64,000 bases of DNA from contig NZ_CP042906.1 in NCBI RefSeq assembly GCF_008728855.1, positions 4,081,570 to 4,145,569 on the forward strand, given 5' to 3'. This DNA is from Hypericibacter terrae. GTDB taxonomy: Bacteria > Pseudomonadota > Alphaproteobacteria > Dongiales > Dongiaceae. Positions within the stretch are counted from its first letter, which is position 1. Every line of letters begins with the position of its first letter. Positions 45,159-63,548 of the stretch are shown here, piece by piece. The position numbers and the translations under genes are program-made. A model generated the notes under the pieces. It had not been told where the DNA came from. It was given only the letters and a program-made list of their open reading frames with translations, and searched no databases.

Positions 45159-45182
45159 GTTCCGGGGAGGGGAAGAGAGTGC

Positions 45183-47192
45183 TCAGGCTGCCCCCGCCGT
45201 CGCCAGCCGGGGCCGGCCGAAGGCCGTGGCCCGAATGCGCGATTCGATGAAGAGCGTCATGCCCTGGACCGCGGGAACGACCTTGTCCTCGCGCTCGAGC
45301 TTGATCTCCGGCTCGGCGGCGCCGGCCTCGTGGGCGAGACGTCTCGCCTGCGCCGAGGCGACCGCCTCGGCCTTCTCGACCGCGGCCGCGAGCTGGTTGA
45401 AGTCGGCAACACCGTCGGGCAGATGGACGCGGAAGCGGCCTTCGGTCGGTTGCGAGATCAGGAGCTCGACCCGCTGCAGCACGCCGCCGGCGACCGCGCC
45501 CACCGCGTTGCAGACATCGGCATGCGGCGGGACGATGAGCTCGGTCCCGAGCCGGCGCGCGATTTCCGGATAATAGGTCGCCGCCGGCGCGCCGATCCCG
45601 ACCAGGGGTCGCTTGAGATTCATGTCGAGGGTGACGAGCGGCGAATCCGAAGCCGTCCCCGCGGCCATCCGCGCCATCACCAGCTCGCCGAGCGCGCCCA
45701 TCTTGTCGGGGGCGATCCCGAGGGACTGATCGAATGTGGTTCCAAGGATTGCGGCCACCGACTGCCGCACGGCCTGCTCGACGATGCGGCGGCAAAAGGG
45801 CTCGATTTCCTTGAGCTTCTCGCCGCCCAGCGCATCGAGGCGCCGGATCCAGAGCCGTGCGCCCAGCACCGAGGCTTCCTGCGACCAGGTCTGCTGCAGG
45901 CCCAGCGCATGGGCCGCATCGCTGGGCGTGAAGCTCGACAGAGCGGCGAGGCCACGGTCGAGGAGGCGCTTCATGGCGCGCTGGCGCGCCGGCCCCTGCA
46001 GGATGTCGGAAAGGGCCAAGGGTCCCGCCTCGAGCGCTTCCCAGAGGTCCAGCTCGTCCGGGCGCAATCCGGATTCCTTGGTATCGAGACGGCGCAGGCG
46101 CAGCAGGAACTGCCCGTCATAGCCGACCCGGACCGCCTCCTCGACCTGATGCTTCAGCTTCTCGATCGTGCCGGGATGCTGGGCGCCGAGCAGAGCCAAG
46201 GGCACGGACCGGCGCGGGCCCAGGATCAGCCCGCCGGTCTCGTCGAGCCTGAGCTCGCTGTCGCCGCCGAGGCCATAGGAATGGACTGCGACCGCCTCGA
46301 CCATGGTGCGCCAACCGCCGACGATCGCGCCTTCGCGGTTCAGCACCGGACGACCGCCCGACAGCATCGCCACATCGGTGGTGGTTCCGCCCATGTCGGA
46401 CACGACCACATCGCCCGAGCCGCAGAGATGATGCGCGCCGACCAGGCTCGCGGCCGGACCCGACAGGATGGTCTCGACAGGGCAGTTCAGCGCGACCTCG
46501 GCCGCGATCAGCGAGCCATCGCCCTTCACCACCATCAGCGGCGCCTCGATCGACTGCGATTTGAGGATCCCCTCGACGGCGCGAATCAATTGCTGGAGCT
46601 GAGGGATGAGCCGCGCATTGAGCGCCACGGTCAAAGCGCGACGCGGCGCATCGAGCTTCGAGGTCAGCTCATGGCCGCAGGTGACCGGAAGGCCTGCGAT
46701 GTCGCGAACCATGGCCTTGACCGCCAGCTCATGAGCGGGATTGCGGACCGAGAAATAGCCCGAGACCGCGAAGGCGGCGACCTTCGGCGCATAAGCCCGG
46801 ATCGCCTTTTCGACGGCGCCGCGATCGAGCGGCGCCTGTTCGTCGCCCATCGGCCCATGGCCGCCGGCGATGAACTCGACCGGATCCGAGCCCATCGCCT
46901 GGCGCAGCCCCGCGCGCTCCAGCGCCTGGCGCTCATAGCCCAGCAGGAGCAGACAGATCGGGCTGCCCTGCCCTTCCACCAGCGCGTTGGTCGCGAGCGT
47001 CGTGGAGAGCGAAACCATCACGATCGGCTCGGACGCCAATGGCAGCACCTGCGCAATGGCGCCGCCCACCCCGATCGAGAGGTCATGCTTGGTGGTCAGC
47101 GACTTGGCGGCCGCCAGCACACCGCGTGCGGGATCGAACAGGGCGGCGTCCGTGTAGGTACCGCCGGTATCAAGGCCGAGGAGAACGGGCAA
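45183..47192 (-). CDS. hydantoinase A / N-methylhydantoinase A-type protein
   Basis: A protein of about 669 residues in the HyuA/oxoprolinase family, which uses ATP in an actin-like fold to open cyclic amides. The N-terminus has LLGLDTGGTYTDAALFD, then STTLATNALVEGQG, VVSDMGGTTTDVAML near residue 285 and YGLGGDSELRLDE near 325. The best start is TTG at 47192, which places GLDTGGTYTD at the usual distance; the frame is open to 47279 but that part looks unlike the family, and no Shine-Dalgarno is evident. No HyuB partner is adjacent. The insertion sequence ends 25 bp beyond its stop codon. Confidence 0.82.
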   Translation of the reverse strand: MPVLLGLDTGGTYTDAALFDPARGVLAAAKSLTTKHDLSIGVGGAIAQVLPLASEPIVMVSLSTTLATNALVEGQGSPICLLLLGYERQALERAGLRQAMGSDPVEFIAGGHGPMGDEQAPLDRGAVEKAIRAYAPKVAAFAVSGYFSVRNPAHELAVKAMVRDIAGLPVTCGHELTSKLDAPRRALTVALNARLIPQLQQLIRAVEGILKSQSIEAPLMVVKGDGSLIAAEVALNCPVETILSGPAASLVGAHHLCGSGDVVVSDMGGTTTDVAMLSGGRPVLNREGAIVGGWRTMVEAVAVHSYGLGGDSELRLDETGGLILGPRRSVPLALLGAQHPGTIEKLKHQVEEAVRVGYDGQFLLRLRRLDTKESGLRPDELDLWEALEAGPLALSDILQGPARQRAMKRLLDRGLAALSSFTPSDAAHALGLQQTWSQEASVLGARLWIRRLDALGGEKLKEIEPFCRRIVEQAVRQSVAAILGTTFDQSLGIAPDKMGALGELVMARMAAGTASDSPLVTLDMNLKRPLVGIGAPAATYYPEIARRLGTELIVPPHADVCNAVGAVAGGVLQRVELLISQPTEGRFRVHLPDGVADFNQLAAAVEKAEAVASAQARRLAHEAGAAEPEIKLEREDKVVPAVQGMTLFIESRIRATAFGRPRLATAGAA

Positions 47193-47360
47193 GGGTTTCG
47201 GATCGCGTAAGGAGGGGAAGGAAAGGCACCAGACTGCGGACCGTGCGGCCGGTCCGGAGCAAGGCTCTACCTGCCCCATTGCGGCATGGTCAAGCCTCGT
47301 CCGTGCCGCAATGACCGCAATGGATGTGAGGCTATCGGCGCGATGGCCGTTGCGGCGGGA

Positions 47361-48215
47361 CTAAGGACCCTGCAACGACAGGGATTCGCGATGTTCGAGT
47401 TGCGGCTTGAAAGCGGCGACTTGGCGCTTGGCCGCAGCCAGTTTCTCGGGCTCCAGCTGGCTGGCCGTCAGGGATTGTCCGCGCCGCGCCAACTCCTGCT
47501 CCTCCCCGCCGGGCAATCCGTCGGCCGCCAGGGAGAACCATTTATAGGCCTCGGTCCGGTCGGGCTCGACCCCTTCGCCGTGAAGATAAAGGGTGGCCAG
47601 GCCGAACTGCGCACGGGCAAATCCCTGCTCGGCAGCGCGCCGATACCACGACGCCGCCTGATGAAGATCGCGCGGAATGGTCTGGCCGGCATCGTAGATC
47701 TGGGCCAGCGCGAACTGAGCATCGATCAGCCCCTGATCCGCCGCCGCGCGATACCAGGCGAGCGCCTTCGCCATGTCGGCGTCGCGCCCCAGGCCCGCCT
47801 CATAGATGATGCCCAGGCCATATTTGGCGCGCCGGTCACCCGCCCCCGCCGCCTGGCTCAGCAAAGCGTAGGCGCGATCCGCATCGGGCGTGACACCCTC
47901 GCCGGTCAGATACTGCGTGCCCAGGGCCGATTGCGCGTCGATGTTGCCGGCGGTCGCGGCCTTGTCGAACCATGAGGCCGCGCGCGAGGGGTTCATCGGC
48001 ACGCCCTTGCCCTGCTGATAGCAGAGCCCCAGCAGAAACTGCGCCTGCGGGTCGCCCGCCTCGGCGAGCGGCCGGAATTGATCGACGGCGCGATCGTAAT
48101 CCCCCTGCTGCGCCGCCTTCAGCCCTTCATCAACGCCGGTCGCGCTTGCCGCCGGCACCGCCGCCAGCAGGCTCAGGCCGAGAAGCAAGGCGACCGACAA
48201 GCATCGACCAATCAT
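47361..48215 (-). CDS. Sel1-like repeat (SLR) exported protein
   Basis: A 284-residue protein with a Sec signal peptide (MIGRCLSVALLLG to about ASATG at 25-26) and then six or so Sel1-like helical repeats of about 36 residues, for example AQFLLGLCYQQGKGV, SALGTQYLTGEGV, AKYGLGIIYEAGLG, AQFALAQIYDAGQT and AQFGLATLYLHGEGV. Such solenoids mediate protein-protein contacts in the periplasm. The partner is unknown. It is divergent from the DUF1491 gene with 87 bp between. Confidence 0.87.
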   Translation of the reverse strand: MIGRCLSVALLLGLSLLAAVPAASATGVDEGLKAAQQGDYDRAVDQFRPLAEAGDPQAQFLLGLCYQQGKGVPMNPSRAASWFDKAATAGNIDAQSALGTQYLTGEGVTPDADRAYALLSQAAGAGDRRAKYGLGIIYEAGLGRDADMAKALAWYRAAADQGLIDAQFALAQIYDAGQTIPRDLHQAASWYRRAAEQGFARAQFGLATLYLHGEGVEPDRTEAYKWFSLAADGLPGGEEQELARRGQSLTASQLEPEKLAAAKRQVAAFKPQLEHRESLSLQGP

Positions 48216-48302
48216 GGGATGACCTGGGAACCGGGCTCAGGCACCCTAGCGCCCGGGCCCGGACCGGGCCAGAGGCCGACAGCGGATTTCGAGACAGGGG
48301 CG

Positions 48303-48638
48303 ATGGAAGAAAGACTGCCCACGGAGATCTGGTTGACGGCGCAGATCCGTCAAGGCCATGCCGCGGGTACCCCGGTTTATCTCCTGCGCCGGGGCGAGCC
48401 GCGGGCGGGTGCCGTGCTGGTGAAGGTGAACCTGATGGGCCCCGGCTGTCGGGTGCTGTCGCAGGTGCGCGACGGGCTGGGACGGCTGGGCTGGATGAGC
48501 GCGCTGGGCGAAGCCCCGGCGACCGAGGCCGACGCCGACGCCTATATCGAGCGGGCCGTGAAGCGCGACCCCGACCTCTGGGTGGTGGAGGTCGAGAGCC
48601 GTGACGGCAAGCACCCGTTCGAGGTCGCGGGCGCCTGA
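48303..48638 (+). CDS. DUF1491 family protein
   Basis: A 111-residue cytosolic protein matching the DUF1491 pattern found in alphaproteobacteria: TEIWLTAQIRQGHAAGTPVY near the N-terminus, LRRGEPRAGAVLVKVN, and ADAYIERAVKRDPDLWVVEV near the C-terminus. The function is not known. ATG at 48303 is chosen because the family starts there; the frame is open upstream to 48078 inside the divergent gene. Confidence 0.82.
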   Translation: MEERLPTEIWLTAQIRQGHAAGTPVYLLRRGEPRAGAVLVKVNLMGPGCRVLSQVRDGLGRLGWMSALGEAPATEADADAYIERAVKRDPDLWVVEVESRDGKHPFEVAGA

Positions 48639-48650
48639 GGCCCGGGCGGC

Positions 48651-50285
48651 TCAGCGGGGTGCCGGCGCGTGACGGAGAAACAGGACGATCCCCAGGCAGA
48701 TGATCGTGCCGAAGCCGATCACCACGAAGCCGTCGATGTAGGCCAGCACATAGGATTGCGCCTGCACCGCGTGGGCAAGCAACAGCAGCGCACGCTTGGC
48801 CGCATCGACGGTCCCGGCCGAGTAACCTCGGACCAGGGCCTCATACTGCGCCAGCCGCTCGAACGTGACGCCGGATTCCCCCGTGACATGCAAGCCCAGC
48901 AGATGGGAATGGACCTGCTCGCGTACCCGCACATAGGTCTGAATGAAGGACGTTCCGGCCTCGCCGCCGAACAATCTTGCGCTCTGGATGATCGTGCCGA
49001 AGGTCAGGGCATCCTGCGGCCGGAGCAGGCGAAGATTGTAGGCGACGATCGAGGTCAGGGCGAGGGACTGGCCCAAGGCCTGGGTGATCTGTGACGGCAT
49101 GAAATCGTCGCTGCCCCACTCCACTGTCAAGCTGGAGGAAACGCTGAAGCAGGCATAGCCGATCAGCGTGAAGCCGAGGGCGATCGTTGTCCGGGGATCG
49201 ACGATGCGCAGTGCCGTGCCGATCAGGGGCGCCAGCAGCAGCTGCGGCAAGGCGATCAACAGCAGGACATCGCCGACCTGGAGCGCGCGATAGCCTTGCA
49301 CCGTGGTGAGATATTGCGGAATGATGTAGGAGGTTGACAGGATCGAGAACCGCAGGAAGAACAGCATGATCACCAGCAGACCCAGATTGCTGCGCACGAA
49401 GATGCGCAGATCGAGCCACGGCGTCTTGCAGATCATCTCCTGCAGGATGAAGGCCAAGAGCATCAGCCCGCCCGCGAGCAACAGCCCGCAGATCAACCCG
49501 TCATTCAGCCAATCCAGCCGGTTCCCCTGGTCGAGCGCCGCATAGAACAGGCTGAATGCCAGGCTGAAATAGATCATCCCGAACCGCTCGACGCCGCGCG
49601 CCGCATCGCGATCCACCGGCCGCCGCGGAATGCCGATGTAGACGGCGACCCACATCAGCACGGCCAGCACCGCGTTCTGCCAGAAGATCCATTTCCACGA
49701 CCAGTGATCGAGATAGAAGCCCTCGAGCGAGGCCGAGATGTTCGTCGAGAGTTCCAGATTCATCGCGTAGGCGGCGATGCCATAGATGAGGTATCGCGGC
49801 GGCAGGTTGCGGACCACGAAGCTGATGGTCAGCGGCAGGAAGGTGCCCATCGCGACGCCGCTGATGAATTGCATGATCAGCACGCCCTGCAAGGTCGTGG
49901 CGGCCGGCAAGAGCAGGGAGGAAAGCATCAGGACGAAGGTCGCCGCCAGCAGGACCCGGCGGGGACCGAGCACATTGCCCAGCCACACCGTCGGGGCGCA
50001 CATCAGCATTTGACCAACGGTATTGGCGGTGGTGATCCAGGCGCCCTCGTCGACGCCGGCGTGAATGGCCCCGCGCAGATCGTTGAGGCCGAAGGTGGTG
50101 ACGCGCCCGCCCAGCGTCACGATGAAGGCGCCCAGCAGAACGGCACCGATGCCGACCAGCGGGTGCGGACTGACCGGCGGCCTCAGCGCGACCCGGTCGC
50201 CCAGGCTGCTCAGCGACAAGGAGCCGAATCTCGGGATCCCAAGTCGCGGAACGCCGAATCTGTCGAAGAATCCCGTCGACGCCAC
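48651..50285 (-). CDS. emrB: MFS multidrug efflux transporter, DHA2 family (EmrB-type)
   Basis: A 544-residue inner-membrane proton antiporter with about 14 membrane segments. Segments typical of EmrB are visible: DLRGAIHAGVDEGAWITTA near residue 68, MQFISGVAMGTFLPLTISFV near 133 and the WRWIF-like WSWKWIFWQNAVL near 182. The 60-residue cytoplasmic N-terminus is longer than in E. coli EmrB. It follows the membrane fusion gene by 11 bp, so the two make an inner-membrane/periplasmic export pair that would need an outer-membrane channel encoded elsewhere. Confidence 0.88.
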   Translation of the reverse strand: MASTGFFDRFGVPRLGIPRFGSLSLSSLGDRVALRPPVSPHPLVGIGAVLLGAFIVTLGGRVTTFGLNDLRGAIHAGVDEGAWITTANTVGQMLMCAPTVWLGNVLGPRRVLLAATFVLMLSSLLLPAATTLQGVLIMQFISGVAMGTFLPLTISFVVRNLPPRYLIYGIAAYAMNLELSTNISASLEGFYLDHWSWKWIFWQNAVLAVLMWVAVYIGIPRRPVDRDAARGVERFGMIYFSLAFSLFYAALDQGNRLDWLNDGLICGLLLAGGLMLLAFILQEMICKTPWLDLRIFVRSNLGLLVIMLFFLRFSILSTSYIIPQYLTTVQGYRALQVGDVLLLIALPQLLLAPLIGTALRIVDPRTTIALGFTLIGYACFSVSSSLTVEWGSDDFMPSQITQALGQSLALTSIVAYNLRLLRPQDALTFGTIIQSARLFGGEAGTSFIQTYVRVREQVHSHLLGLHVTGESGVTFERLAQYEALVRGYSAGTVDAAKRALLLLAHAVQAQSYVLAYIDGFVVIGFGTIICLGIVLFLRHAPAPR

Positions 50286-50296
50286 CGATATTTCCT

Positions 50297-51439
50297 CTAA
50301 GGCGCGGGGTTGGCGGCGATGGGGCTGCCGGTGTCGACGGTCGCAATGACCGACATGCCCGGGCGCAACAGATCGCTCAAGGGATTGGGCTGGTCGATGG
50401 TGATCTTGACCGGCACGCGCTGCACCACCTTGGTGAAATTGCCGGTCGCATTGTCGGGCGGCAGGAGGCTGAACTGGCTGCCGGTCGCGGGGGCGAAGGC
50501 CAGCACATGTCCGGTGAGCTTCACGCCCGGATAGGAATCGACCGTGACGACCGCTGTCTGCCCGACGCCCATATGGGTGAGCTGGGTTTCCTTGTAGTTG
50601 GCGAGCACGAAGACGTCGGGCAGCGGAACCAGGGTGATCACCGTCATTCCGCTGGTCACATATTGTCCGGGGTTCACCTGCCGGCGGCCCACGACGCCGC
50701 GATTGGGCGCGAGGATCCGGGTGTCGCGCAGCGAAATCTGCGCCAGATCGAGGGCCGCCTGCTGGGCCGCAAGCTGGGCCCGCGCCTGCAGCTCCTGGGT
50801 ATCAAGCACCGTCAGCTGCCCGCGCTGTTGGGCCAGTTGGGCTTTGCTCAGGTCGACCGCCGCCTGGGAGCGCTGCATCGCGGCCATCGCGCGCTCGACG
50901 AGCTGGTTCGTGCCGGCGATATGGCTGGCGAGCAGCTCCTGCTGGCGCTTTGATTCGAGACTGTCGCGCGTCAAGTCGGATTGGGCCGCCGCGACATTGG
51001 CCGTGGCCTGATCGATGATGGCCTGCTGAACCTGTTTCTGAACCGCCAGATTCGCGAGCGCGGCTTGGGTCGCCTGCACATTCGCCCCGGCCTGCGCGAC
51101 CTGGGCCCGATAATCGTCATCGACGATCTCGACGAGGAGATCGCCGGCCTCGACCTTCTGAAAATCCGTCACGGGAACCGAACGCACATAACCGGAGACC
51201 CGGCTTCCCAGGGGAGCCAGGTCGGATTGCAGATAGGCATCGTCGGTCGATTGCAGCCGGGAGGAACCGACCCACCAGTTCCATTCGATGGCGAAGCTCG
51301 CGACCAGGAAGGCCGCCAGCAGGATCACGAAAATGCGGAGCGGCAGGCCGGACCACCGCCGCCACCGGGAGGGCGCCTTGGCCGCTGCGGGCGGCGGCGC
51401 ATCATTCGCAGGGGGCTGCAACGCATCGGGCGACATCAA
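50297..51439 (-). CDS. emrA: HlyD-family membrane fusion protein (EmrA-type)
   Basis: A 380-residue periplasmic adaptor. It has a cytoplasmic Pro-rich N-terminus, one membrane segment (about residues 33-50), a biotinyl-lipoyl-like half-motif (GSRVSGYVRSVPVTDFQKVE), long Ala/Gln-rich coiled-coil helices (about 105-215) and a beta-barrel (PNRGVVGRRQVNPGQYVT). It links the EmrB-type pump to an outer-membrane channel. Two adjacent ATG codons occur at 51439 and 51436. Confidence 0.88.
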   Translation of the reverse strand: MMSPDALQPPANDAPPPAAAKAPSRWRRWSGLPLRIFVILLAAFLVASFAIEWNWWVGSSRLQSTDDAYLQSDLAPLGSRVSGYVRSVPVTDFQKVEAGDLLVEIVDDDYRAQVAQAGANVQATQAALANLAVQKQVQQAIIDQATANVAAAQSDLTRDSLESKRQQELLASHIAGTNQLVERAMAAMQRSQAAVDLSKAQLAQQRGQLTVLDTQELQARAQLAAQQAALDLAQISLRDTRILAPNRGVVGRRQVNPGQYVTSGMTVITLVPLPDVFVLANYKETQLTHMGVGQTAVVTVDSYPGVKLTGHVLAFAPATGSQFSLLPPDNATGNFTKVVQRVPVKITIDQPNPLSDLLRPGMSVIATVDTGSPIAANPAP

Positions 51440-51743
51440 CGCGCTCCCGGCACGGGAAACCCGTGAAAGAAGGCGCTGTCTCGCGACGACAAGATACCCT
51501 CTCTCGAAGCCACCTTATCATGTCCCCAATCCTCGGCCTTATGGGAGCCGGCAACCCGGCTGGGCCTCGAGGTGGCGTCAATATCGGAGGGCCGGACTGG
51601 CCGCGGCTAGAACGATTCCAGCGACAAAAACTATGTTGGCGGGGAACCCGGGGGCGAGGGCGAGAGAGGGAGGTGGCGCTGAAACGAACGGGGGCATACC
51701 GGCCCGTCGGCCGGTACGCCCCCCCGTCCTGTGTGAGCGGAAT
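51440..51743. other. intergenic region between emrA and the chemoreceptor gene
   Basis: This 304-bp stretch contains the upstream region of emrA (right-to-left transcription starting near 51450-51550; no clear promoter motif found) and, at its right end, the chemoreceptor terminator hairpin at 51688-51727. I see no gene in it. Confidence 0.4.
51688..51727 (-). terminator. strong hairpin after the chemoreceptor gene
   Basis: The arms at 51688-51704 and 51709-51725 pair over about 16 of 17 positions (ACGGGGGC-A-TACCGGCC with GGCCGGTA-C-GCCCCC) around a 4-nt loop. It begins 17 bp after the stop codon. On the minus strand the following sequence (GTTCGTTT) has few T in a row, so termination efficiency is uncertain. 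Confidence 0.5.
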
Positions 51744-53420
51744 TTAAGCCGCGCGGATGGCGCCGAGGAAGCGATCGAGCTCCGAACGCAGGGTCTCCGA
51801 CTGCTTCGACAGATCGCGCGCCGACCCCAGAACCTGGCTGGCCGCGGCGCCGGTATCGTCGGCAGCCTTGCTGACATGCGCGATGTTCGACGACACGTCG
51901 TTGGTGCCCTGGGCCGCCTGCTGCACGTTGCGGGCGATTTCCTGGGTGGAAGCCGACTGCTCTTCCACCGCCGCCGAGATGGTGGTGGCGATGGTGTTGA
52001 TGGAAGCGATCGTCTTGCCGATGCTGGCGATCGCCTGCACCGAGCCCTGGGCCGCCTGCTGGATGCCCGTGATCTGAGCCGAGATATCCTCGGTCGCCTT
52101 CGCCGTCTGATTGGCGAGGGTCTTGACCTCGGAGGCCACGACGGCGAAGCCCTTGCCGGCTTCGCCGGCGCGCGCCGCTTCGATCGTGGCATTGAGCGCC
52201 AGGAGGTTGGTCTGGCTGGCGATGTCGTTGATCAGCCCGACCACGTCGCTGATCTTCTTCGCGGCCTCGTCGAGCACCTTGACCTGGCTGTTGGTCTGCT
52301 CGGCTTCGGCAACCGCCGAGTTGGCGACCCGCGTCGATTCCGAGACCTGGCGGGTAATCTCCTGGACCGAGGCCGAGAGTTCCTCGGCCGCGGCCGCCAC
52401 GGTCTGGACATTGGCCGTCGCTTCCTGGGCGCCGGCGGCAACCGCCTGCGACTGCTTGGAAGCCTCCTCGGCCGAGCCCTGCATCGTCTCTGCCGCCGCC
52501 TGCAGCTCGGTCGCGGCGGAGGCCAGCGTCTTGACCACGCCGCCGACGGCCAATTCGAAATCGTTGGCCATTTTCAGCATGTCGGCCTTGCGCCGGGTCT
52601 CGGCGGTCTTCTTGGCCTCTTCCTGCTCGGCACGCAGGCGATCGGCCTCGATCATCTTGTCCTTGAACACCTGCACCGCCTGCGACATCGCACCGATCTC
52701 GTCGGCACGTTCGGTGCCGGGTATGGCGACGGTCTTGTCGCCCGAAGCGAGGCTCGACATGGCGCTCGTCATGCCGATCACGGGGCGGGAGATGCCGCGC
52801 ACCAGCAGGAAGGAAACCACCAGATTGAGCAGGACGCCCACGATCGACAGGATCAGGCTGATCATGCTGCTGGTCCGGCCCCTGGAATCGGATTCCGCAT
52901 CCGCAGCCTTGGCATTGGCGATCTCGATGTCGCGGACTTTGTATATCGGATCGGCCATGCGGCTCACGACCTCGTCGATCTGACCGTCCATGTCGCGGAT
53001 CTCGGGGGTCATCTCCGTCGTCGCCTCGAGCGCCGGCATCATCTTGGTCTCGAACAATGCGATCAGATCCCGATATGCGGTCTGCGATTGCTGCAGCAGG
53101 GCCTTTTCCTCGTCGCTCTGCGCCACGGCCGTCATGCTCGTGAAGTTGACCTCGACGTTCTTCTTCCTTTCCGCCCAATCCTTGCGGGTGGTATCGAGTT
53201 CCCGGTTGATCTCGGCGTCGGCAATGATGCGATAGAGTTCCGCGCCGTCGCCGGCCGAAGCCGTCGCGACCGTCGCGTTCGCCGCACTCATGGCGCCGAT
53301 ATCCTGCAAGCTGCGGAAGCGATCCAAAGAGACATAGCCCCAACCGGCGAGGGCAAGAAGGATCGCGACATTGAGCGTAGCCGCCAGCATCATCTTGCCG
53401 GCGATTTTCATGCTGAGCAT
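51744..53420 (-). CDS. methyl-accepting chemotaxis protein
   Basis: A 558-residue transmembrane chemoreceptor. An N-terminal membrane helix (about 7-27) is followed by a roughly 160-residue helical periplasmic sensor of the 4HB type, a second membrane helix (about 190-212), a HAMP domain ([20 protein letters not shown]) and a long coiled-coil signalling domain whose hairpin tip reads [20 protein letters not shown]. It signals to CheA/CheW. No C-terminal CheR-tethering pentapeptide is present. ATG at 53420 has AGGAA six bases upstream; the frame extends to 53459. Its ligand is unknown. Confidence 0.92.
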
Positions 53421-53668
53421 GGAAGTTCCTCGTGAGACCAGAATTGGAAACACGCGCACGCAGGATTCCGACAGCGCAAGGGCGGGAATGAGGGGCGCGA
53501 TTTCGCCAATCTAGGCGGACGTCTCTCAAGGAATGATAAACGCGTTCGAACGACGCGGGGCGGGGAAGCATGGGGAGGAGCGGAACCGCTCGAGAACCGC
53601 GGCGTGGCGCGGGTTCCCTGCGGAACCGACGCGACCGGGAGCGGCCATGATCTCGGGGAGGGGGAAGT

Positions 53669-53713
53669 GGTGCCCAGGGACGGAATTGAACCGCCGACAC
53701 GGGGATTTTCAGG
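53669..53713 (-). other. tRNA-Phe 3' fragment, presumed prophage attachment site (att)
   Basis: Read on the minus strand, these 45 nt match the 3' half of an alphaproteobacterial tRNA-Phe: the anticodon loop from CTGAAAA (anticodon GAA), stem strand TCCCC, variable loop, the T-arm GGCGG-TTCAATT-CCGTC, acceptor strand CCTGGGC, discriminator A and CCA. Upstream of the anticodon loop nothing pairs: no GGGGA, D-arm or GCCCAGG acceptor strand exists. This is the form left when an integrase recombines in the anticodon loop. Host DNA lies to the left and phage genes to the right, matching the expected geometry. Confidence 0.75.
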
Positions 53714-53826
53714 CGTCGGCGTTCTGTTCCAGTTCAATGGCTTACCGGGTCGATCCATGGAAAACCGCCCGACCGCATCAAAGGCTTATGGCGATTCTGG
53801 CAAACATCACCAAGGTCCAGAAACGC

Positions 53827-53859
53827 AAAAAGACCCGGCCCCCTTTCGGGAGCCGGGTC
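53827..53859 (-). terminator. rho-independent terminator of the phage late operon
   Basis: GACCCGGC at 53832-53839 and GCCGGGTC at 53852-53859 form an 8-bp stem; read on the minus strand it is followed by TTTTTGCG. It lies 28 bp after the last phage gene (stop at 53887) and close to the att site, which fits the end of a late-gene transcript. Confidence 0.85.
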
Positions 53860-53886
53860 CGGCTGGCAGGCGCGCGCGATCGCGCG

Positions 53887-54099
53887 TCAATAGCCGACGA
53901 GGATCCTATACCCCTTCCCCCGCATGCAATCCGTCACCGGATTCCCGAGCGCGATGAAGGGCTGGTTGTTCACGCACCAGGCCATGTCGCGGTTGTATTG
54001 GACCTGGGCGACGCCCTCCATGTCGACGATCGGCTGCGGCGTCGCCTGGCAGCCCGCCAGGAGCGCGGCCATGGCCGCCAGCATCAAGACCCTTCGCAT
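53887..54099 (-). CDS. small lipoprotein, prophage
   Basis: A 70-residue protein with a lipoprotein signal: MRRVLMLAAMAALLAGC, lipobox LLAGC with Cys17. The mature part has two further Cys (MAWCVNN and TDCMRGKGY) that could form a disulfide. Function unknown; as the last gene of the lysis cassette it may act in the outer membrane. ATG at 54099 has GGGGAGAG upstream; the longer frame to 54225 is not supported. Confidence 0.65.
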   Translation of the reverse strand: MRRVLMLAAMAALLAGCQATPQPIVDMEGVAQVQYNRDMAWCVNNQPFIALGNPVTDCMRGKGYRILVGY

Positions 54100-54190
54100 C
54101 GTCTCTCCCCATCCCTGCCCGTCCAGGTTGCCCCAGGGACGCCCCGGGCGGCAAGGGGAACGCGACCGCCGCCGTCCCCTCGGCCGTCGC

Positions 54191-54457
54191 TCACCACCCC
54201 GGCCAGAGCAGCCGCCGCACGCCATGGCCGATCGCGGCGCCGACCAGGCAGAAGCCCCAGTCCAGCGCGCTGTCGCTCACCGAGGGCGTGTTGAGCGTCT
54301 TCCATTGCTCGCCCTCGCGCACGGCGCCATAGAACGCGGCCGCACCCATCGCCTCGATCCAGCCCGCGCAGAGCAGCCCGGCGGCGGCCCCGAACAGGAT
54401 ATGCAGCCCCTGGTCCCTGACCTGGTGCCAGAACCGCGTCGGCGAGCCATCGGGCAT
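54191..54457 (-). CDS. small phage membrane protein
   Basis: An 88-residue protein with two hydrophobic segments (about 19-40 and 64-84) separated by a polar stretch. It starts two bases after the stop codon of the o-spanin-like gene, as the other lysis genes do. I do not recognise a family; a second holin or antiholin is possible from size and position. Confidence 0.55.
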   Translation of the reverse strand: MPDGSPTRFWHQVRDQGLHILFGAAAGLLCAGWIEAMGAAAFYGAVREGEQWKTLNTPSVSDSALDWGFCLVGAAIGHGVRRLLWPGW

Positions 54458-54459
54458 GG

Positions 54460-54678
54460 TCAGCCCTCGCCCCGGCAGGCGCGGACCTGGTCGCGCAGGC
54501 TCTTGTAATCCCGCACCACGACCACGATGGGGTCGTCGTTCGGCAGCGGCGCCAGCTCGTCGGCGAGCCGGGTCTGGAAATCCTGGCCATACTCGACCAC
54601 CGGCGGGCAGCCCGTGACATAGCTCGGCGCGCAGCCGGCCAGCAGCGCGCAGGCCGCGAGCATGAGGAAGGTGCGCAT
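54460..54678 (-). CDS. Rz1-like outer-membrane lipoprotein (o-spanin candidate)
   Basis: A 72-residue lipoprotein: MRTFLMLAACALLAGC with lipobox LLAGC and Cys16, then CPPVVEYGQDFQTRLADEL and a C-terminal RDQVRACRG. The short mature chain after the lipid anchor and the position directly after a one-TM protein resemble Rz/Rz1 spanin pairs, which fuse inner and outer membranes at lysis. ATG at 54678 has GGGGAAG upstream and lies one base from the previous stop. The long upstream extension (to 54786) is Arg/Pro-rich shadow of the i-spanin gene. Confidence 0.65.
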   Translation of the reverse strand: MRTFLMLAACALLAGCAPSYVTGCPPVVEYGQDFQTRLADELAPLPNDDPIVVVVRDYKSLRDQVRACRGEG

Positions 54679-54679
54679 G

Positions 54680-54898
54680 TCAGAACTTCCCCTTCCGCAG
54701 CGTGTCGATGACCGCCGCCTTGTCCGCCGGCGCCTTGGCGGCGGCTTCCTGCTCCCGCGCTCGGGTCTCGGCCGTCGCGTCGGCATTGCCGGCGCGCTGG
54801 TCTGACCCGCCCTTGCCGCGGCCGGCGAGATAGGCGAGCCAGATCACGGCGAGGATCAGGACGAAGCCGCCGCCGATGATGGCGTAGGTGGTCATCAT
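54680..54898 (-). CDS. single-TM protein with charged C-terminus (i-spanin candidate)
   Basis: A 72-residue protein: one N-terminal membrane helix (about 5-25, IIGGGFVLILAVIWLAYLAG) followed by a charged, Ala/Glu-rich helical tail. This is the expected layout of an Rz-type inner-membrane spanin, though it is shorter than lambda Rz. AGGAA precedes the ATG at 54898 at eight bases; a second ATG follows at once. Start and stop overlap with neighbours by a few bases. Confidence 0.55.
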   Translation of the reverse strand: MMTTYAIIGGGFVLILAVIWLAYLAGRGKGGSDQRAGNADATAETRAREQEAAAKAPADKAAVIDTLRKGKF

Positions 54899-55035
54899 GT
54901 CGGTGTTCCTCGGACGCGGTTTCGGATCCCGCGGTTCAGCTCGCGGCGGATCAGCCACAAGACCAGCAGGAAGAACCCGGCGCCGCCGGCCAGCAGGCAG
55001 ACGGCGGCGACCGGGATCAGGACCCACCAGGGCAT
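54895..55035 (-). CDS. 46-residue membrane peptide of the lysis cassette
   Basis: A short frame from ATG at 55035 encodes MPWWVLIPVAAVCLLAGGAG and continues with a second hydrophobic stretch (FFLLVLWLI) and a basic tail (RRELNRG). Its stop overlaps the start of the i-spanin candidate (ATGA), and it begins three bases after the holin-like gene, so it is part of the coupled series. Function is unknown; it might act with the holin. No close family is recognised. Confidence 0.5.
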   Translation of the reverse strand: MPWWVLIPVAAVCLLAGGAGFFLLVLWLIRRELNRGIRNRVRGTPT

Positions 55036-55038
55036 CGA

Positions 55039-55209
55039 TCAGGCCTTGGGCGGCAGGTTCGGCACGACATAGACCAGCAGCGTCGTGATGACGCCGCCGA
55101 TCGCGGTCACCAGCTCGGGCGTCGCCCAGTCGGTCGGCAGCCCGAACACGCCGGCGAGCGTGATGGCGCCGCCGAGGAACGCAACGATGGCCTTGTTGTA
55201 GGCACCCAT
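55039..55209 (-). CDS. putative holin
   Basis: A 56-residue protein with two hydrophobic helices (about 6-24 and 34-50) joined by a short polar turn with Pro (GLPTDWATPEL) and ending VVPNLPPKA. Size, topology and place between lysozyme and spanins fit a small class II-type phage holin that permeabilises the inner membrane. AGGAG lies seven bases before the ATG at 55209. Assignment rests on context. Confidence 0.6.
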   Translation of the reverse strand: MGAYNKAIVAFLGGAITLAGVFGLPTDWATPELVTAIGGVITTLLVYVVPNLPPKA

Positions 55210-55211
55210 GG

Positions 55212-55427
55212 TCAGTCTCCTTTGGTTTGGCCTTTGTCGGCCGGGGTGATGTCGATCCAGTAGTCGCGGCCCAGCACCCACCGGGCGCGGTCCTGCGAGG
55301 TGACGCGCGCCGGAATCGTGATCCGGATCGGCCGGCGGTCCAGATGGTCGGGATCGCCGAACGACACGACGAGGGCGCCGTCGCTGTCCTCGAGCGCGGT
55401 TGCCGTCATGCGGAAGCGCGTCTTCAT
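55212..55427 (-). CDS. small phage protein of unknown function
   Basis: A 71-residue soluble protein, Arg/Asp-rich, with no membrane segment or recognised domain. It sits three bases after the lysozyme gene and two before the holin candidate, so it is translated as part of the same series. The sequence looks beta-strand-like (GALVVSFGDPD, PIRITIPARV, DYWIDITP). Confidence 0.5.
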   Translation of the reverse strand: MKTRFRMTATALEDSDGALVVSFGDPDHLDRRPIRITIPARVTSQDRARWVLGRDYWIDITPADKGQTKGD

Positions 55428-55430
55428 GGT

Positions 55431-55907
55431 TCAATCCTCGAGATAGAGGGCGGCCTCGGCGAAGCGCCGGCGCAGCAGGCCGCGCAGCTCGGCGCCGCCG
55501 GCCCGGTCCCAGTTCGGGAATTCCCGGGCGGCCCGCAGCCGGAGCCCCTGGTTGTGCAGGTAGAGCAGCGTCGAATCGCCGAGCCCTTCGGGCTTGGTAT
55601 CGGCGTCGATATCGCTCCCGACATTGAAGGCGAACGACACCAGCGCGTCGAACTCGCTGGGCCGCGTGTCGCGCCGCACCAGGCTTGTCACGTCGGCCTC
55701 GAAACGCGCCAGGTCGGCCACCAGCGCCGCGTCGGCCTGCGCCTGGGTCCAGACCAAGCCCGCCACGACCTCCGGCCCGGTATGGCCCCAGCCGATGGTC
55801 CAGCGGGGATCCTTGGCGCGGGCATCGAGATAGGCCGTCAGCCGGCATTGCTCGAACGACTTGATCAGGGCGAGGCCGCGCGGCCCGAGCTTCATCGCCG
55901 CCGTCAC
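55431..55907 (-). CDS. GH24 phage lysozyme (endolysin)
   Basis: A 158-residue T4-lysozyme-type muramidase that cleaves peptidoglycan at lysis. The catalytic core reads SFEQCRLTAYLDARAKDPRW, then TIGWGHTG; Glu19 is the acid, with Asp28 and Thr37 completing the E-D-T set. FDALVSFAFNVG near residue 85 is the conserved helix of the family. There is no signal sequence, so it depends on a holin to cross the membrane. It overlaps the previous gene by four bases; Met5 is an alternative start. Confidence 0.9.
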   Translation of the reverse strand: MTAAMKLGPRGLALIKSFEQCRLTAYLDARAKDPRWTIGWGHTGPEVVAGLVWTQAQADAALVADLARFEADVTSLVRRDTRPSEFDALVSFAFNVGSDIDADTKPEGLGDSTLLYLHNQGLRLRAAREFPNWDRAGGAELRGLLRRRFAEAALYLED

Positions 55908-56257
55908 CAGCCGCTCGCCTTGACGAACAGGTAGCCGCAGATGCTGAGCAGAAACAGGATCGTCGAGCCGCCGATGGTAAAGAGGATGGCGTTGATCCGG
56001 CTATGGATCCGGGAGTTGCTCGATTTGGCGCCGTCGAAGCCGCTCTGCACCTCGCTGCGCAGGGTGCCGAGCGTCAGCGCCATCTCGGCCCGGAAATCAT
56101 GCCGCTGCTTCGCGGCCTGCCGCCGCTCCTCCATGCAGTCTTCCTCATGTCGGGTCATGCGCCTGTCCAGGCTTTCCGCGAGCGCATGTGATTTCATCGC
56201 CAGCTCGATTGCCCGCGTGTCGAGTTGCCGCTGGGCCGTTTCCGCTTGATCACCCAT
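55904..56257 (-). CDS. phage protein with coiled coil and C-terminal membrane helix
   Basis: A 117-residue protein: a long charged helical part (residues 1-85, rich in Arg, Glu, Gln and Ala) and a C-terminal membrane helix (about 92-113, LFTIGGSTILFLLSICGYLFV). Such proteins next to endolysins are often called holin-like or Rz-like. It overlaps the lysozyme start (ATGA). ATG at 56257 is chosen as the first sensible start; the frame is open upstream through the tail fibre gene. Confidence 0.5.
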   Translation of the reverse strand: MGDQAETAQRQLDTRAIELAMKSHALAESLDRRMTRHEEDCMEERRQAAKQRHDFRAEMALTLGTLRSEVQSGFDGAKSSNSRIHSRINAILFTIGGSTILFLLSICGYLFVKASGW

Positions 56258-56310
56258 TCCCGCACGCCCCCATGCCCTTGAGCCGGTCCCGCCAGACCGG
56301 TGCCCATCCC

Positions 56311-57615
56311 TTACGCCAGCTTCTCGAACTCCAGCACGCGATAGACCTCGACCTCGCCGGTCGTCAGCGCCGCGCCGAGACTGGCCGAGGTCGAGTTGCA
56401 CCAATATTGCAGCTCGAGCGCCTTCGAGCCCGCGACGGTGAAGATCCCCTCGAGCGGCGTGGTCATGACGATATTGCCGGTGCTGCCGCCGACGCTGTGC
56501 CCGCCGACCAGGACCGTGGTGCCGTCGGTGATATTCCGCAGCCGGATGCCGAAGCCGACGCCGGCCGCCAGCATCGGGCCGAAGGTGCACCAGCCCCGGA
56601 CCCGGTAGGTGCCGGCGGCCAGCGTCACGCGGTTGGCCGACAGCGCGCCGACGCCGTCCGGATCGCTGTCCTCGGTATTGAGCGCGAGCTGCGTCCAGGC
56701 GTTGGCCGCGACGCCGCCGCCGCCGCTGGTGCCCGACGAGACGGTATAGCTGTATTTGGCGTAGCTCAGCTTCGCCTGGAACAGCGCCGCCACCGCCGTC
56801 TTGAGGTTGGCCCAGGTGAACTTGCGTCGGTTGCCGGCCGAGGCCTTCTGCTTCGCGAACTGGTCGTCGTCGGCGAAAGTGGATTCGCCGGTCAGCCCGT
56901 CGATATTCAGGACGAACTGCACCTGCTCGTTGCTGCCGCCATTGATGGTCGAGACGCCGACGCCGCTGGTGCCCGACAGCTTCGCCCCGATATAGCCCTC
57001 GGTCGTGTCGGTGCCCGAGACCAGCACCTTCTTGTTGTCGGCCGAGCCCGAGCCCGAGGCGATCTTCCAGCCGGTCGAGGCGTCGAGCACCAGCTCGAGC
57101 GTCTCGCCCGGCGCCACCGCGACCGAGGTCGCGCCGTCGACCGTGTCGCTGGTCGCGTCGGCCCGCTGCACCGTCAGATCGTTGCCGGTGCCGTCATTGC
57201 GGAAGCCGATGGCGAAGCCCGCGAGCGCCGCCGAGGCCGCCGGCAGCTTGATGGTGAAGGCGGCCGAGGTCGGGTCGGCCAGCACGAAGGCGCCCTGGTC
57301 GGCGACCGTCGCGGTATAGGCCGCGGTCTTGCTCAGGATCCGGCGGCGGATACGCGGGCGCGTGACGGCGGCGCTGGAATCGATCTCGGCAATGATCGGC
57401 CAGTTGGCCAGGTCCGAGACCGTGCCGCCCTTGAACTTGCGCTCGTACCAGAGCGGATCGGCGCTGTCGTCGGTCCAGGTATACCCGGCCTCGGCATAGC
57501 TGGGCGGCGAGGCCCCCTTATGCGCCGTGTTCGCGGCGCTCTTGCCGCTGTTGTCCAGGCCGCGATAGCTGGTCCCGGTCTCGCCCGAGCCGATGGTCGG
57601 CGTCGCTTGGCTCAT
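56311..57615 (-). CDS. tail fibre / distal tail-like protein
   Basis: A 434-residue Gly/Ser/Thr/Ala-rich, beta-strand protein with low charge, placed directly downstream of the gpJ homologue. The start and the J stop share one base (TAATG). Repeated short motifs (SGTSG, GVGVSTINGG, STFADDDQFAKQK) suggest a trimeric fibre with a linker and a C-terminal jelly-roll-like domain (GTYRVRGWCTFGP, then LELQYWCNS). It probably contacts the host surface. No close homologue is recognised by eye. Confidence 0.6.
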   Translation of the reverse strand: MSQATPTIGSGETGTSYRGLDNSGKSAANTAHKGASPPSYAEAGYTWTDDSADPLWYERKFKGGTVSDLANWPIIAEIDSSAAVTRPRIRRRILSKTAAYTATVADQGAFVLADPTSAAFTIKLPAASAALAGFAIGFRNDGTGNDLTVQRADATSDTVDGATSVAVAPGETLELVLDASTGWKIASGSGSADNKKVLVSGTDTTEGYIGAKLSGTSGVGVSTINGGSNEQVQFVLNIDGLTGESTFADDDQFAKQKASAGNRRKFTWANLKTAVAALFQAKLSYAKYSYTVSSGTSGGGGVAANAWTQLALNTEDSDPDGVGALSANRVTLAAGTYRVRGWCTFGPMLAAGVGFGIRLRNITDGTTVLVGGHSVGGSTGNIVMTTPLEGIFTVAGSKALELQYWCNSTSASLGAALTTGEVEVYRVLEFEKLA

Positions 57616-60600
57616 TATTGCTCCTGTCCCCTGCCCACCGCGATCCAGTCATAGGTGCGGCTGATTCCGGTGCCTGCGCTGTTGAAGAAGCGGATGCTGA
57701 AGCCGGTCCGGCTCTTGCTCGTGATCGCGTAATAGTCGCCGGTCGCCATGTCCTGCGCGTTGATCCCCACCGATGGCGAGGTGTGGAACGGACTGGCATA
57801 GGTGATCGTGTCGCCGGCGGCGTTCGAGACCACATCCTCCGCATGCGCCGTATCCAGCGGCAGCGTCGCCGTGACGCTGAGTTCCTCGGCGACCGGCCGC
57901 ACGCCCGCGTCGAGGCTCTCGAGCTGGGCCCGGAACTCGGCGCCCCAGAAGAGATAGTCGCCCACGGTGAATGGCAGCCAGTCGCCCCAGGTCGGGGTTC
58001 CGCCGGGATCGTCGAGCGTCAGCCGGATCTCGAGCCGGATCCGCCATTGCGACGGATCGGCGCCGTCCCAGTTCGTGATCGCGTCGACATCGGTCCAGTC
58101 GTCGATCAGGTTGTTGAGTGATTCGCCGAAGGCCTTGACATGCGCGATCAGCCGCGCGCGATAGACCCCGCCCAGGTCGATCGCGTTGGCGAAGACATAG
58201 GTGCCGCTGGTCTCGCCGTCGGCGAGCGTGAGCTGGTCGGCGATCACCTGGGTATTCGTGCCGCTGCCGGCGAAGGCCGTCTCCTCGGTCGCCGTCTCGG
58301 TCGCCGTCAGGTCGATGCCGGCGACGGTCGAGACGATCAGCGTGGCGTTGGCGCTCTCTAGCCCGTCGCCCACCGCCTTGATCAGATAGCTGCCGACCAG
58401 CAGCGGCGCGTTGACCGAGGTCGCGTCGCGCCCGATCTGCTCGATCAGCACCGAGGCCGAGCCCCAGTCGGCGGCGACCGTCACCGGCGAGAAGCGCAGC
58501 TCGTAATGGGTCCGGTTGAGATTGACGCCGGCGATCCAGGTCAGATGCGCTTCGGCGTTCAAGGCCTGGATCGAGAAGCCCGCCACGTCGTCGAGCGGCC
58601 CCATCGTGCCGGTCAGGTAGACGTCGCGCCGCTCCAGCCAGCCCGAGCGCTGGCCGATGTTCGAGATCGCCCGCACCCGGAACGACCACAGCCCCGGCTC
58701 GGTGTCGAGGATCTGCAGGGACGTGCCCTGGATCCTCTCGTTCGCGATCTGGTACTGCTGCCCCGGCCGCTTCGCCTGCAGCTCATAGAACTGGCTGCGC
58801 CCGTCGCCGCCGTCCTTCCAGGACACGGTCACCGCCGCGCGCACCGAGGGGCCCGCGGAATAGAGCGATTCCTGCAGCGCCATGTCGCTCGGCAGGCGCG
58901 GCGGCAGCCCCAGGATCGACGTCGGCGGCGGGTCCAGCACCAGCCCCAGCTCGATGCGATCGTATTTGGTGGGGTCGTGCCGATTCCCGGTGATCTCGAC
59001 CTGATCCTGTTCGATCTCGCGTAGACTCAGAATGTTGATCGGAATCGGTTTGATATCCGAGCTGGTTAGCACCCATACCGCCCCCGATGCCGGCGCCGCC
59101 GAGAAGGGCGGATCGACCTCGATCGTATCGGTGTCGCCGGCGCCCGTCGTCACGTCGCGATCCTCGGGCGCGTTGTCGGCCATGACAACTGACAGCGTAT
59201 AGGTCTGGTCCGCGAACAGCGTCACCGCGGCGTCGAGCGTGATCGCGCTGTCGGTCGAGCCCGACTTGACGCGCCCGCCATAGCGCACGCCCGAGATCAC
59301 CGGGTCTGCCACGGCCACCAGCATGCCCGGCGTCAGGTCGGCCTGGTCCCAGCCCGCGCGCCAGGTACAGAGCTCGCCCTCGCTCTTCTCGGTCTCCAGC
59401 ACCCACAGTCCGGCTCGGTGCGACTGCCCCTGCGAGGTCGAACCATAGGCCAGCACATCGACCTGCCGCAGCCCCAGCGTGGCGATCCCGTCATCGTCCT
59501 CGACCGGCTCGATCGCCGCGCGATAGCCGTCGCCCGGGTCGTTCCATGTCACCGCGGCATAGGTATGCCGGGCCTTGAGCGCCGTCCCCTGCCAGTCGAA
59601 GCGCCCGCCGATGACGTTCGCCGGCGTGATCAGCCGCTCGACGTCGCGCGGCCGGTCCTGCACGACCGTCACGGTGCCCGAGGCCCAGAAGACCATGCAG
59701 CGGCAATTCGAGGCCACCGCCTGGATGACGCGATAGGCCTCCTCGCCGGTATTCAGCAGCCCGTTGAAGGTGAAGCGCGGCTCGGTGCCGCCGAAGCCGT
59801 CGGGCACCAGCTCGTCGTTATAGACGCCGATCTCGTAGAGCGCCCACTTGTCGACATTCTCGGCCGGGATGCCGCAGCCCCAGCGGGTGTTGGTCAGCAG
59901 CGCATAGAGGAACCAGGCCGGGTTGTTGGTCCAGGCCATCTGGAAGGTCCCATCCCAGATGCCGTCATAGGTCCGCGCCTCCGGATCGTAATTGGCGGGC
60001 ACCTCCATGATCAGCCATTTGCCCTCGACGCCGCGCGAGGGCACCTGGTCGCCGAACTGCTCGGCGTCGACCGTGTATTTGATCAGCGCCGAATCCGGAT
60101 AGATCAGCCGGTCGTCGATGATCTCGGTGTAGCGCGACCAGAAGCCGGCATTCTGGACCTGGGCGCTGTCGGAATCCGGCGTCAGCCGCGAGACCCGGAT
60201 GTCCCAGGGCCCCGTGCCGGTGATGTCGATCCGGTAGCTGATCTCGTAGGGCGACATGGTCTTGCCGGTGATGACCGCGCCCTGCGGCACCAGCCCCAGC
60301 TTGGCGACCACGGTCCCGACCGTCGCGCGGACCTCGTATTCGTCCTCGGACAGCCCGGCGATCTCGAAGGTGGCGGACCCTGCTGTCGGCAGGAAGGCGG
60401 CCACCACGTCGTCGCGGGCCCCGCCGGCGCGCCGCGTGGCGTTCAGCACGGTGACGGTCTTCGACCCCAGCGCCGTCCAGCTCACATCGCCGACCGCGCG
60501 ATATTCGGCGGCGACATCGACGGTCTGAGTTTTGGCGCCGCCCGCGGTCGTCGCCTGCACCGTGACTTGCAGGCCCGACGCGGTGTCGAGCGTCGTGTCG

Positions 60601-61160
60601 TCGAACGCCTCCCATTTGAGGTTGGTCGTCGAGCGGATCCAGGGCCCGCCATTGTCGCGCCACTCGATCAGATGCTCGACCTCGGACCCCACCAGGTCGC
60701 CGTTGGTCTTCTGCTCGAACAGCGCCGACAGCCGGATCGTGACCCGCACCGCGTCGAGGTCGGGATTGGTGATCGTCCGCGTGATCGGCGTGTCGAACTT
60801 GACCTCGACCCCGACCACCTGCTCGGATTCCAGCGCCGGATCGCCGGTGAAGGGCGCCTGGTCGGTCGTACCGGTGCGGAATTCCCAGGTGATGCCCTGG
60901 AAATTATACGACCCGTCGACCGCCTGCAGCTTCGTGTCCTCGAGCAGGATCGACTGCGAATCGTTCAACGGCCCGACCACCGGCCCCTCGCAGAGCAGGT
61001 CCGTCAGCCGCACCACCGACTTCGACCGCAGCGAGTTCGGATCCTCGCGCGGGGTATAGACCGTGCCGCCCGCCGCCTTGCCGCCGCCCTTGCGACCCCT
61101 GACGATCGCATCGGCCCCGGGCGCGCTGATCCGGTCGCCGCGGCCTTGCATGACGGGCAT
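57615..61160 (-). CDS. phage host specificity / tail tip protein J
   Basis: A 1181-residue homologue of lambda gpJ, which forms the tail tip and contacts the receptor. The N-terminus has the family-like GRKGGGKAAGGTVYTPREDP and SKSVVRLTDLLCEGPVVGPL. The mid part (about 480-700) contains the phage-tail domain with PRFTFNGLLNTGEEAYRVIQ and YAAVTWNDPGDGYR. Residues about 760-950 include fibronectin-type III-like strands, and the C-terminal 220 residues are the variable receptor-binding part. Lambda gpJ is 1132 residues, so the length fits. It lies 74 bp after the I gene. Confidence 0.88.
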   Translation of the reverse strand: MPVMQGRGDRISAPGADAIVRGRKGGGKAAGGTVYTPREDPNSLRSKSVVRLTDLLCEGPVVGPLNDSQSILLEDTKLQAVDGSYNFQGITWEFRTGTTDQAPFTGDPALESEQVVGVEVKFDTPITRTITNPDLDAVRVTIRLSALFEQKTNGDLVGSEVEHLIEWRDNGGPWIRSTTNLKWEAFDDTTLDTASGLQVTVQATTAGGAKTQTVDVAAEYRAVGDVSWTALGSKTVTVLNATRRAGGARDDVVAAFLPTAGSATFEIAGLSEDEYEVRATVGTVVAKLGLVPQGAVITGKTMSPYEISYRIDITGTGPWDIRVSRLTPDSDSAQVQNAGFWSRYTEIIDDRLIYPDSALIKYTVDAEQFGDQVPSRGVEGKWLIMEVPANYDPEARTYDGIWDGTFQMAWTNNPAWFLYALLTNTRWGCGIPAENVDKWALYEIGVYNDELVPDGFGGTEPRFTFNGLLNTGEEAYRVIQAVASNCRCMVFWASGTVTVVQDRPRDVERLITPANVIGGRFDWQGTALKARHTYAAVTWNDPGDGYRAAIEPVEDDDGIATLGLRQVDVLAYGSTSQGQSHRAGLWVLETEKSEGELCTWRAGWDQADLTPGMLVAVADPVISGVRYGGRVKSGSTDSAITLDAAVTLFADQTYTLSVVMADNAPEDRDVTTGAGDTDTIEVDPPFSAAPASGAVWVLTSSDIKPIPINILSLREIEQDQVEITGNRHDPTKYDRIELGLVLDPPPTSILGLPPRLPSDMALQESLYSAGPSVRAAVTVSWKDGGDGRSQFYELQAKRPGQQYQIANERIQGTSLQILDTEPGLWSFRVRAISNIGQRSGWLERRDVYLTGTMGPLDDVAGFSIQALNAEAHLTWIAGVNLNRTHYELRFSPVTVAADWGSASVLIEQIGRDATSVNAPLLVGSYLIKAVGDGLESANATLIVSTVAGIDLTATETATEETAFAGSGTNTQVIADQLTLADGETSGTYVFANAIDLGGVYRARLIAHVKAFGESLNNLIDDWTDVDAITNWDGADPSQWRIRLEIRLTLDDPGGTPTWGDWLPFTVGDYLFWGAEFRAQLESLDAGVRPVAEELSVTATLPLDTAHAEDVVSNAAGDTITYASPFHTSPSVGINAQDMATGDYYAITSKSRTGFSIRFFNSAGTGISRTYDWIAVGRGQEQ

Positions 61161-61234
61161 GGTTTTCCGATGTCGAGAATGTGGGCGGGATGGGGCGCGA
61201 AACGAGATCGAAGCTAGAAATCAGAGCGAAGCGA

Positions 61235-61954
61235 TCAACCAATCTGTTCGGGCGTGATGCCGGCGGACACGACCTTCGAGCCGATCAGGAAGATCCCGAC
61301 CGCAATCGGCACCGGCGAGCCTTCCTCCGAGGTGTTGACGACGCCGTTGGTGAGGAAGGAGGGGCGCTGATCCGGACGCTCGCGGTTGCCGTAATTGCCC
61401 GCATGGGGCTGCTGCGACAGCAGCGACGACACGCCCGACAGCACCATCGCCACGCCGAACAGCGCGATCTGGCCGTAGGAGATCGCGAGGCCGCCGACGG
61501 TGAAAGCCGTGGCCGCCAGGCCGGCGCTGCCCACAGCAACGCCGCCCGCCACCGAGCCGCCCAGCGAGGCCGCGCCGATCGCGCCGGCGGCCGCCAGCGA
61601 GGTGCCCGCCGTGAAGACCGCCGTCGCGATCAGGATCACCCCGATCACGATCTTGCCGATCATCATGCCGCTGCCCTTGGCGCCGGCGACGACCGGCACG
61701 ATATGCAGGTCGGCATCGCCCAGTCGCAGCGAGATATCCTCGGGCCCGAGCGCCATGGCGGGCCGCGGCAAGAGCGGCGGCTGCACCCGCGGCTGGCGGA
61801 TGACGCGGAACGCGCCGTCGATCATCGCCTTGCGGAAGCCCTTGAGCTGCGCCGCCAGGGCCCGCGCCGCCTCGCGCGGCGTGGCGACATCGAGCCTGAA
61901 TTCAGGCCCGAACTGCGCCGCGAGCGAGCCATGCAGATGGACGGTGCGCATCAT
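61235..61954 (-). CDS. phage tail assembly protein I
   Basis: A 239-residue lambda gpI-like protein. Residues 1-95 form a ubiquitin-like fold domain (RTVHLHGSLAAQFGPEFRLD, then LRLGDADLHIVPVVAG); the rest is Gly/Ala-rich and hydrophobic with several possible membrane-like stretches. It is needed for tail tip assembly, between K and J. The start overlaps the K stop (ATGA). Confidence 0.85.
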   Translation of the reverse strand: MMRTVHLHGSLAAQFGPEFRLDVATPREAARALAAQLKGFRKAMIDGAFRVIRQPRVQPPLLPRPAMALGPEDISLRLGDADLHIVPVVAGAKGSGMMIGKIVIGVILIATAVFTAGTSLAAAGAIGAASLGGSVAGGVAVGSAGLAATAFTVGGLAISYGQIALFGVAMVLSGVSSLLSQQPHAGNYGNRERPDQRPSFLTNGVVNTSEEGSPVPIAVGIFLIGSKVVSAGITPEQIG

Positions 61955-62730: not shown

Positions 62731-62742
62731 GGGACTCCAAAA

Positions 62743-62785
62743 CATCACGCCCCCTCCCCTTGCGGGAGGGGGTAGGGGGAGGGGT
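62743..62785. repeat. REP-like palindrome, copy 1 in prophage
   Basis: Between the L and K tail genes lies a 43-bp element identical to that at 63506-63548. CCCCCTCCC and GGGAGGGGG pair over 9 bp around CTTGC, followed by TAGGGGGAGGGG. It occupies nearly all the gap between the L stop and the K ribosome-binding site. Confidence 0.85.
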
Positions 62786-62790
62786 ACTTC

Positions 62791-63498: not shown

Positions 63499-63505
63499 TC
63501 ACCAT

Positions 63506-63548
63506 CATCACGCCCCCTCCCCTTGCGGGAGGGGGTAGGGGGAGGGGT
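63506..63548. repeat. REP-like palindrome, copy 2 in prophage
   Basis: Identical over 43 bp to the copy at 62743-62785, and situated between the M stop (63553) and the L start (63498). It has the same 9-bp stem and tail. Both copies have the same orientation. Confidence 0.85.

Follow-up and report, generated by a model that had tools for sequence, protein, structure and literature searches.

A tRNA-Phe 3′ fragment marks the left end of a 44-kb prophage integrated, probably at the anticodon loop, in the apparently single tRNA-Phe(GAA) gene of Hypericibacter terrae

The 45 nt at positions 53668–53712 (minus strand) of the window, the 64,000-nt stretch at 4081570–4145569 of the Hypericibacter terrae genome analyzed here, are almost certainly the attL core of a 44,158-bp temperate prophage that a tyrosine recombinase inserted at the anticodon loop of the host's only tRNA-Phe(GAA) gene. 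The reverse complement of this displaced 3′ part (CTGAAAATCCCCGTGTCGGCGGTTCAATTCCGTCCCTGGGCACCA) comprises the anticodon loop, the 3′ anticodon stem, the variable loop, a perfect T-arm, the 3′ acceptor strand and the CCA; it runs from the first anticodon-loop base to the terminal CCA and equals positions 32–76 of the intact tRNA-Phe. The original prediction had correctly named the anticodon loop, variable loop, T-arm and CCA and the size of 45 nt, but its coordinates (53669–53713) were one base off: the T at 53668 lies inside the repeat, and the G at 53713 lies outside, where the intact gene has a T. It had also stated that the fragment lacks the tRNA sequence 5′ of the anticodon loop, and this was borne out. 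At 53668–53712, ARAGORN called no tRNA and Rfam found none, and the 76-nt stretch composed of the fragment and its new 5′ neighbor did not fold as a cloverleaf, whereas the intact gene did.

An intact tRNA-Phe(GAA) gene with the same 3′ half, accompanied by an integrase, had been predicted beyond position 64000, and both were found. ARAGORN identified the gene at genome positions 4179395–4179470 (minus strand); its 3′ 45 nt form a second core (4179395–4179439) that is 100% identical to the fragment core (genome 4135237–4135281), and the gene of a tyrosine integrase stops 29 bp short of it. Measured from any point of one core to the same point of the other, the offset is 44,158 bp, with the second copy to the right, and sequence identity breaks off exactly at either end of the 45 nt. 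In the whole 5,894,118-bp single contig, the core occurs exactly twice and in the same orientation; given an expectation of 8.6e-17 for an exact 45-nt repeat in this 5.89-Mb genome, it is not a chance repeat. A pattern of the tRNA-Phe anticodon and T arm matched only the places of the two cores in a whole-genome search, and no other tRNA-Phe gene was found in the genome. Because the next-best genome matches to the gene were tRNA-Met, -Lys and -Thr, the tRNA-Phe(GAA) gene appears to be single-copy.

tRNA genes are frequent targets of tyrosine integrases, the seven bases of the anticodon loop and the palindromic stem around them resembling a 7-bp overlap flanked by core sites, and the integrating phage brings its own copy of the portion of the gene it displaces (PMC4383910, PMC8371274). 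The sequence GGGGA-CTGAAAA-TCCCC is such a 7-base loop with a palindromic stem, and the crossover probably took place within this loop. The attP of the phage would have brought a copy of the 3′ part of the tRNA-Phe gene; at the right end (attR), this copy would have been joined to the host 5′ part, restoring a working tRNA-Phe, and the original host 3′ part would have been shifted to the left end, still attached to the DNA that formerly followed the gene. The geometry thus points to the left copy as the host original and to the right copy as phage-borne, an assignment that sequence cannot prove because the two copies are identical. The arrangement agrees with that of Islander islands of anticodon class A with a 3′ fragment (PMC4383910): the intact tDNA and its end fragment lie on the same replicon in the same orientation and mark the ends, the 3′ fragment lies downstream of the minus-strand tRNA gene, a tyrosine integrase gene is located inside the interval, and the size is within 2–200 kb. 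Of the 3919 islands compiled there, 2083 use the anticodon-centered site, and a 3′ fragment accompanies 3760. There is no difference in principle; the tRNA gene used here is a single-copy tRNA-Phe(GAA).

Close to both cores, a short sequence recurs that we take as a candidate arm-type site of the integrase. TGGAAAACCG is located at 53758–53767 (plus strand), 45 bp from the left core, and in two tandem direct copies on the left side of the right-hand core, at a distance of 45–66 bp (L013 14829–14838 and 14841–14850). The shorter GGAAAACCG occurs about 57 times in the 5.89-Mb genome; within the element, it is present only three times (window 53759, L013 14830 and 14842), each copy at most 70 bp from one of the two cores, and this exclusive proximity suggests that it represents arm-type sites. 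The left core is also spanned by a 7-bp inverted repeat, which was dismissed as chance because 45 of 300 shuffles reached it. Just inside the left end, between attL and the leftmost prophage gene, a strong inverted repeat (GACCCGGCCCCCTTTCGGGAGCCGGGTC, window 53830–53860) could form a terminator-like hairpin; Rfam matches at 53822–53955 were sub-threshold.

The left 10.3 kb of the prophage lie in the window (53713–64000), as judged from gene content and the flanking core repeat, and the element runs on to genome position 4179394, directly left of the second core. All genes assigned in the window part are on the minus strand. The leftmost encodes a small lipoprotein-like product (53887–54084) with only a weak PHROG match, followed by an Rz-like spanin (54680–54898; phrog_1026, E 2.7e-4), a holin-like membrane protein (55039–55209; weak matches to phrog_17495 and phrog_9752), a phage lysozyme (endolysin, 55431–55907; PF00959, E 3.7e-33; phrog_7), the tail tip/host specificity protein J (57615–61160; PF24801, PF13550; phrog_31, E 1.6e-247) and lambda-like tail proteins I, K (NlpC/P60 + JAB), L and M (61235–63912; PF06805 [weak], PF00877, PF14464, PF05100 and PF05939). 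Between the two cores, these tail, lysozyme, spanin- and holin-like genes are complemented by those for the small and large terminase, portal, S78 protease, capsid, a tape measure-type tail protein and an HTH-S24 (CI-like) repressor. With packaging, head, tail, lysis and repressor genes all present, the element is, judged by its genes, a complete prophage of a siphovirus-type temperate phage. The same prophage has been independently catalogued as a virus in IMG/VR (UViG_2883291878_000001) with a 100% identical integrase. This call of 43,606 bp extends exactly as far as the stop codon of the integrase gene and therefore lacks attR; if collinear, it would start near window position 54191, about 0.5 kb inside attL.

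A comparison with a same-genus genome (G001) identified the prophage as an insertion. G001 is collinear with window 29977–48638 at 80–89% nucleotide identity, with gaps. One of these (window 43775–45195) holds an ORF (43800–45137) that reads as an IS4-type transposase. About 360 bp past the collinear stretch, G001 carries an intact tRNA-Phe gene, which contains its single copy of the core, with no phage between; beyond it follow the same right-hand genes as in the source genome, which we take from reading to be yacG-, RNase G-, Maf- and IF-1-like. A query with the RNase G gene against the genome contigs returned only distant actinobacterial loci of no use as neighbors. The same left- and right-hand genes are thus joined at tRNA-Phe without a phage, which together with the gene content fits the expectation of host DNA left and the element right of the fragment. 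The expected prophage-free relative was thereby found, syntenic and with an intact tRNA-Phe gene, but not with a base-exact empty site, because the 5.0 kb left of the fragment (48639–53667) are missing from G001 as well as the prophage; among the genomes compared, none offered a phage-free counterpart of the junction 53667/53668. This host-side block contains MFS, HlyD-like and methyl-accepting chemotaxis protein (MCP) genes, the last one left of the junction being the MCP gene (51744–53420, minus strand; PF00015, PF00672). It sits between a small ORF ending at 48638 and the prophage, where G001 goes on to tRNA-Phe.

Two other explanations of the left junction were considered. If the prophage, or an island that had used this tRNA gene before it, had brought in the MFS-HlyD-MCP block, the element would be larger or composite and 53668 would be the edge of the prophage only. 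The absence of the block at this place in G001 would fit, as would the low identity of its relatives (28–29% for the MFS protein in the related genomes searched, at most 59% for all G001 MCPs); however, a third tRNA-Phe fragment left of the block was not found, the G+C content of the block (64.8%) equals that of neighboring host DNA (65.0%) and differs from that of the prophage (67–69%), and a loss of the block in G001 is equally possible, so that we consider a composite element improbable. An origin of the fragment as a tRNA-Phe pseudogene in decay, or as a fortuitous tRNA-like sequence with no tie to the phage, has a negligible probability. tRNA-Phe 3′ parts are conserved between species, and weak matches are therefore easily found, but the fragment has abrupt ends, is identical over exactly 45 nt to the single genomic tRNA-Phe gene and borders on the phage genes, the second copy being accompanied by an integrase. 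The exact repeat at both ends of the phage gene block refutes this explanation and supports the original assignment of the fragment as the left boundary of the prophage.

The integrase gene (plus strand, genome 4178247–4179365; L013 13747–14862 for genome 4178247–4179362) lies inside the right end of the element, convergent with tRNA-Phe, and encodes a 372-aa protein. Profile searches matched phrog_1 (E 6.4e-21) and PF00589 (below the Pfam cut-off), and an AlphaFold model (mean pLDDT 77) showed a lambda-integrase-like fold with lambda Int (1z1b/1z1g) as best structural matches. A small ORF without family match overlaps the integrase start; from its position only, one may guess at an excisionase. 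The tyrosine recombinase family is defined by an R...HxxR...Y catalytic tetrad (PMC8371274). The integrase has retained HGLR (300–303), Lys226 and Tyr335 in an intact frame, and the first catalytic Arg is replaced by Thr200 (motif AGLTEGD), at a position where aligned relatives mostly have Arg (e.g. GLREGD or GQREGD); Gln326 is found where the box-III His is expected. The protein thus belongs to the tyrosine recombinase family by fold and homology and is, by its tetrad, a noncanonical or inactive member. The Arg is retained in 40–42% identical IMG/VR relatives and in the 29% identical integrase of Paracoccus phage vB_PsuS_Psul1 (MK291443); the annotated att site of this phage likewise lies in a tRNA gene immediately past the integrase 3′ end, although that gene is tRNA-Trp(CCA). 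It is missing in a diverged IMG/VR sequence (L185), in a short copy in another genome (G266, L174) and in a 37–38% identical integrase beside tRNA-Lys in G015, where it is replaced by Ser. A displaced tRNA-Lys fragment was not found in the fragmented G015 assembly, which hence does not show whether an Arg-less integrase works. A query with the integrase against the genome contigs returned no relatives.

Since Thr200 stands where most relatives carry the first catalytic Arg, the present activity of the integrase is doubtful; the enzyme may be dead or slow, and the prophage may then be locked in. On the simplest reading, the Arg was lost after integration, in which case the prophage would have lost the means to excise on its own. 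Whether it is a dead relic in this sense is about evenly balanced. The contrast between AGLTEGD and the Arg of most relatives argues for a relic, as does the family-defining role of the tetrad (PMC8371274); the remaining catalytic residues in an intact frame, the still identical cores and the intact structural genes among those examined argue against it, and the Ser-containing G015 relative hints at a variant that is perhaps tolerated. It is rather unlikely that the integrase stems from a minor lineage of phage tyrosine recombinases able to work without the first catalytic Arg (Thr here, Ser in the G015 relative); if so, the exact tRNA-Phe junctions of the prophage would demonstrate it.

Displaced tRNA-Phe 3′ parts were also found in other genomes. 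G003 and G038 each contain a second such part, at a distance of 10.6 and 10.9 kb, respectively, from the complete tRNA-Phe gene, the identity extending five more bases into the anticodon stem in G003; lone fragments with the same cut point are present in G023 and G027. The tRNA-Phe anticodon loop is thus a common target of several elements. Those between the intact gene and the displaced fragment in G003 (L048, 2835–13553) and G038 (L075, 3120–14064) are other elements, and in G003 the integrase is located on the side of the fragment instead of that of the tRNA gene. In G023, an integrase gene (L051, 1307–2416) lies on a 3.7-kb contig beside a tRNA-Phe 3′ part without 5′ half, which could be an unintegrated attP.

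The integration described here is an ordinary Islander-type event at a tRNA gene, of a well-known kind, and adds a clean case with one curious feature that can be tested: the missing catalytic Arg, through which the prophage could have become fixed in place. Both ends of the 44-kb prophage are now fixed to the base, which corrects the trimmed public call. The only tRNA-Phe gene of the host would rely on a phage-supplied 3′ half, and the same anticodon-loop boundary in unrelated elements of other alphaproteobacteria-type relatives makes tRNA-Phe a shared target.
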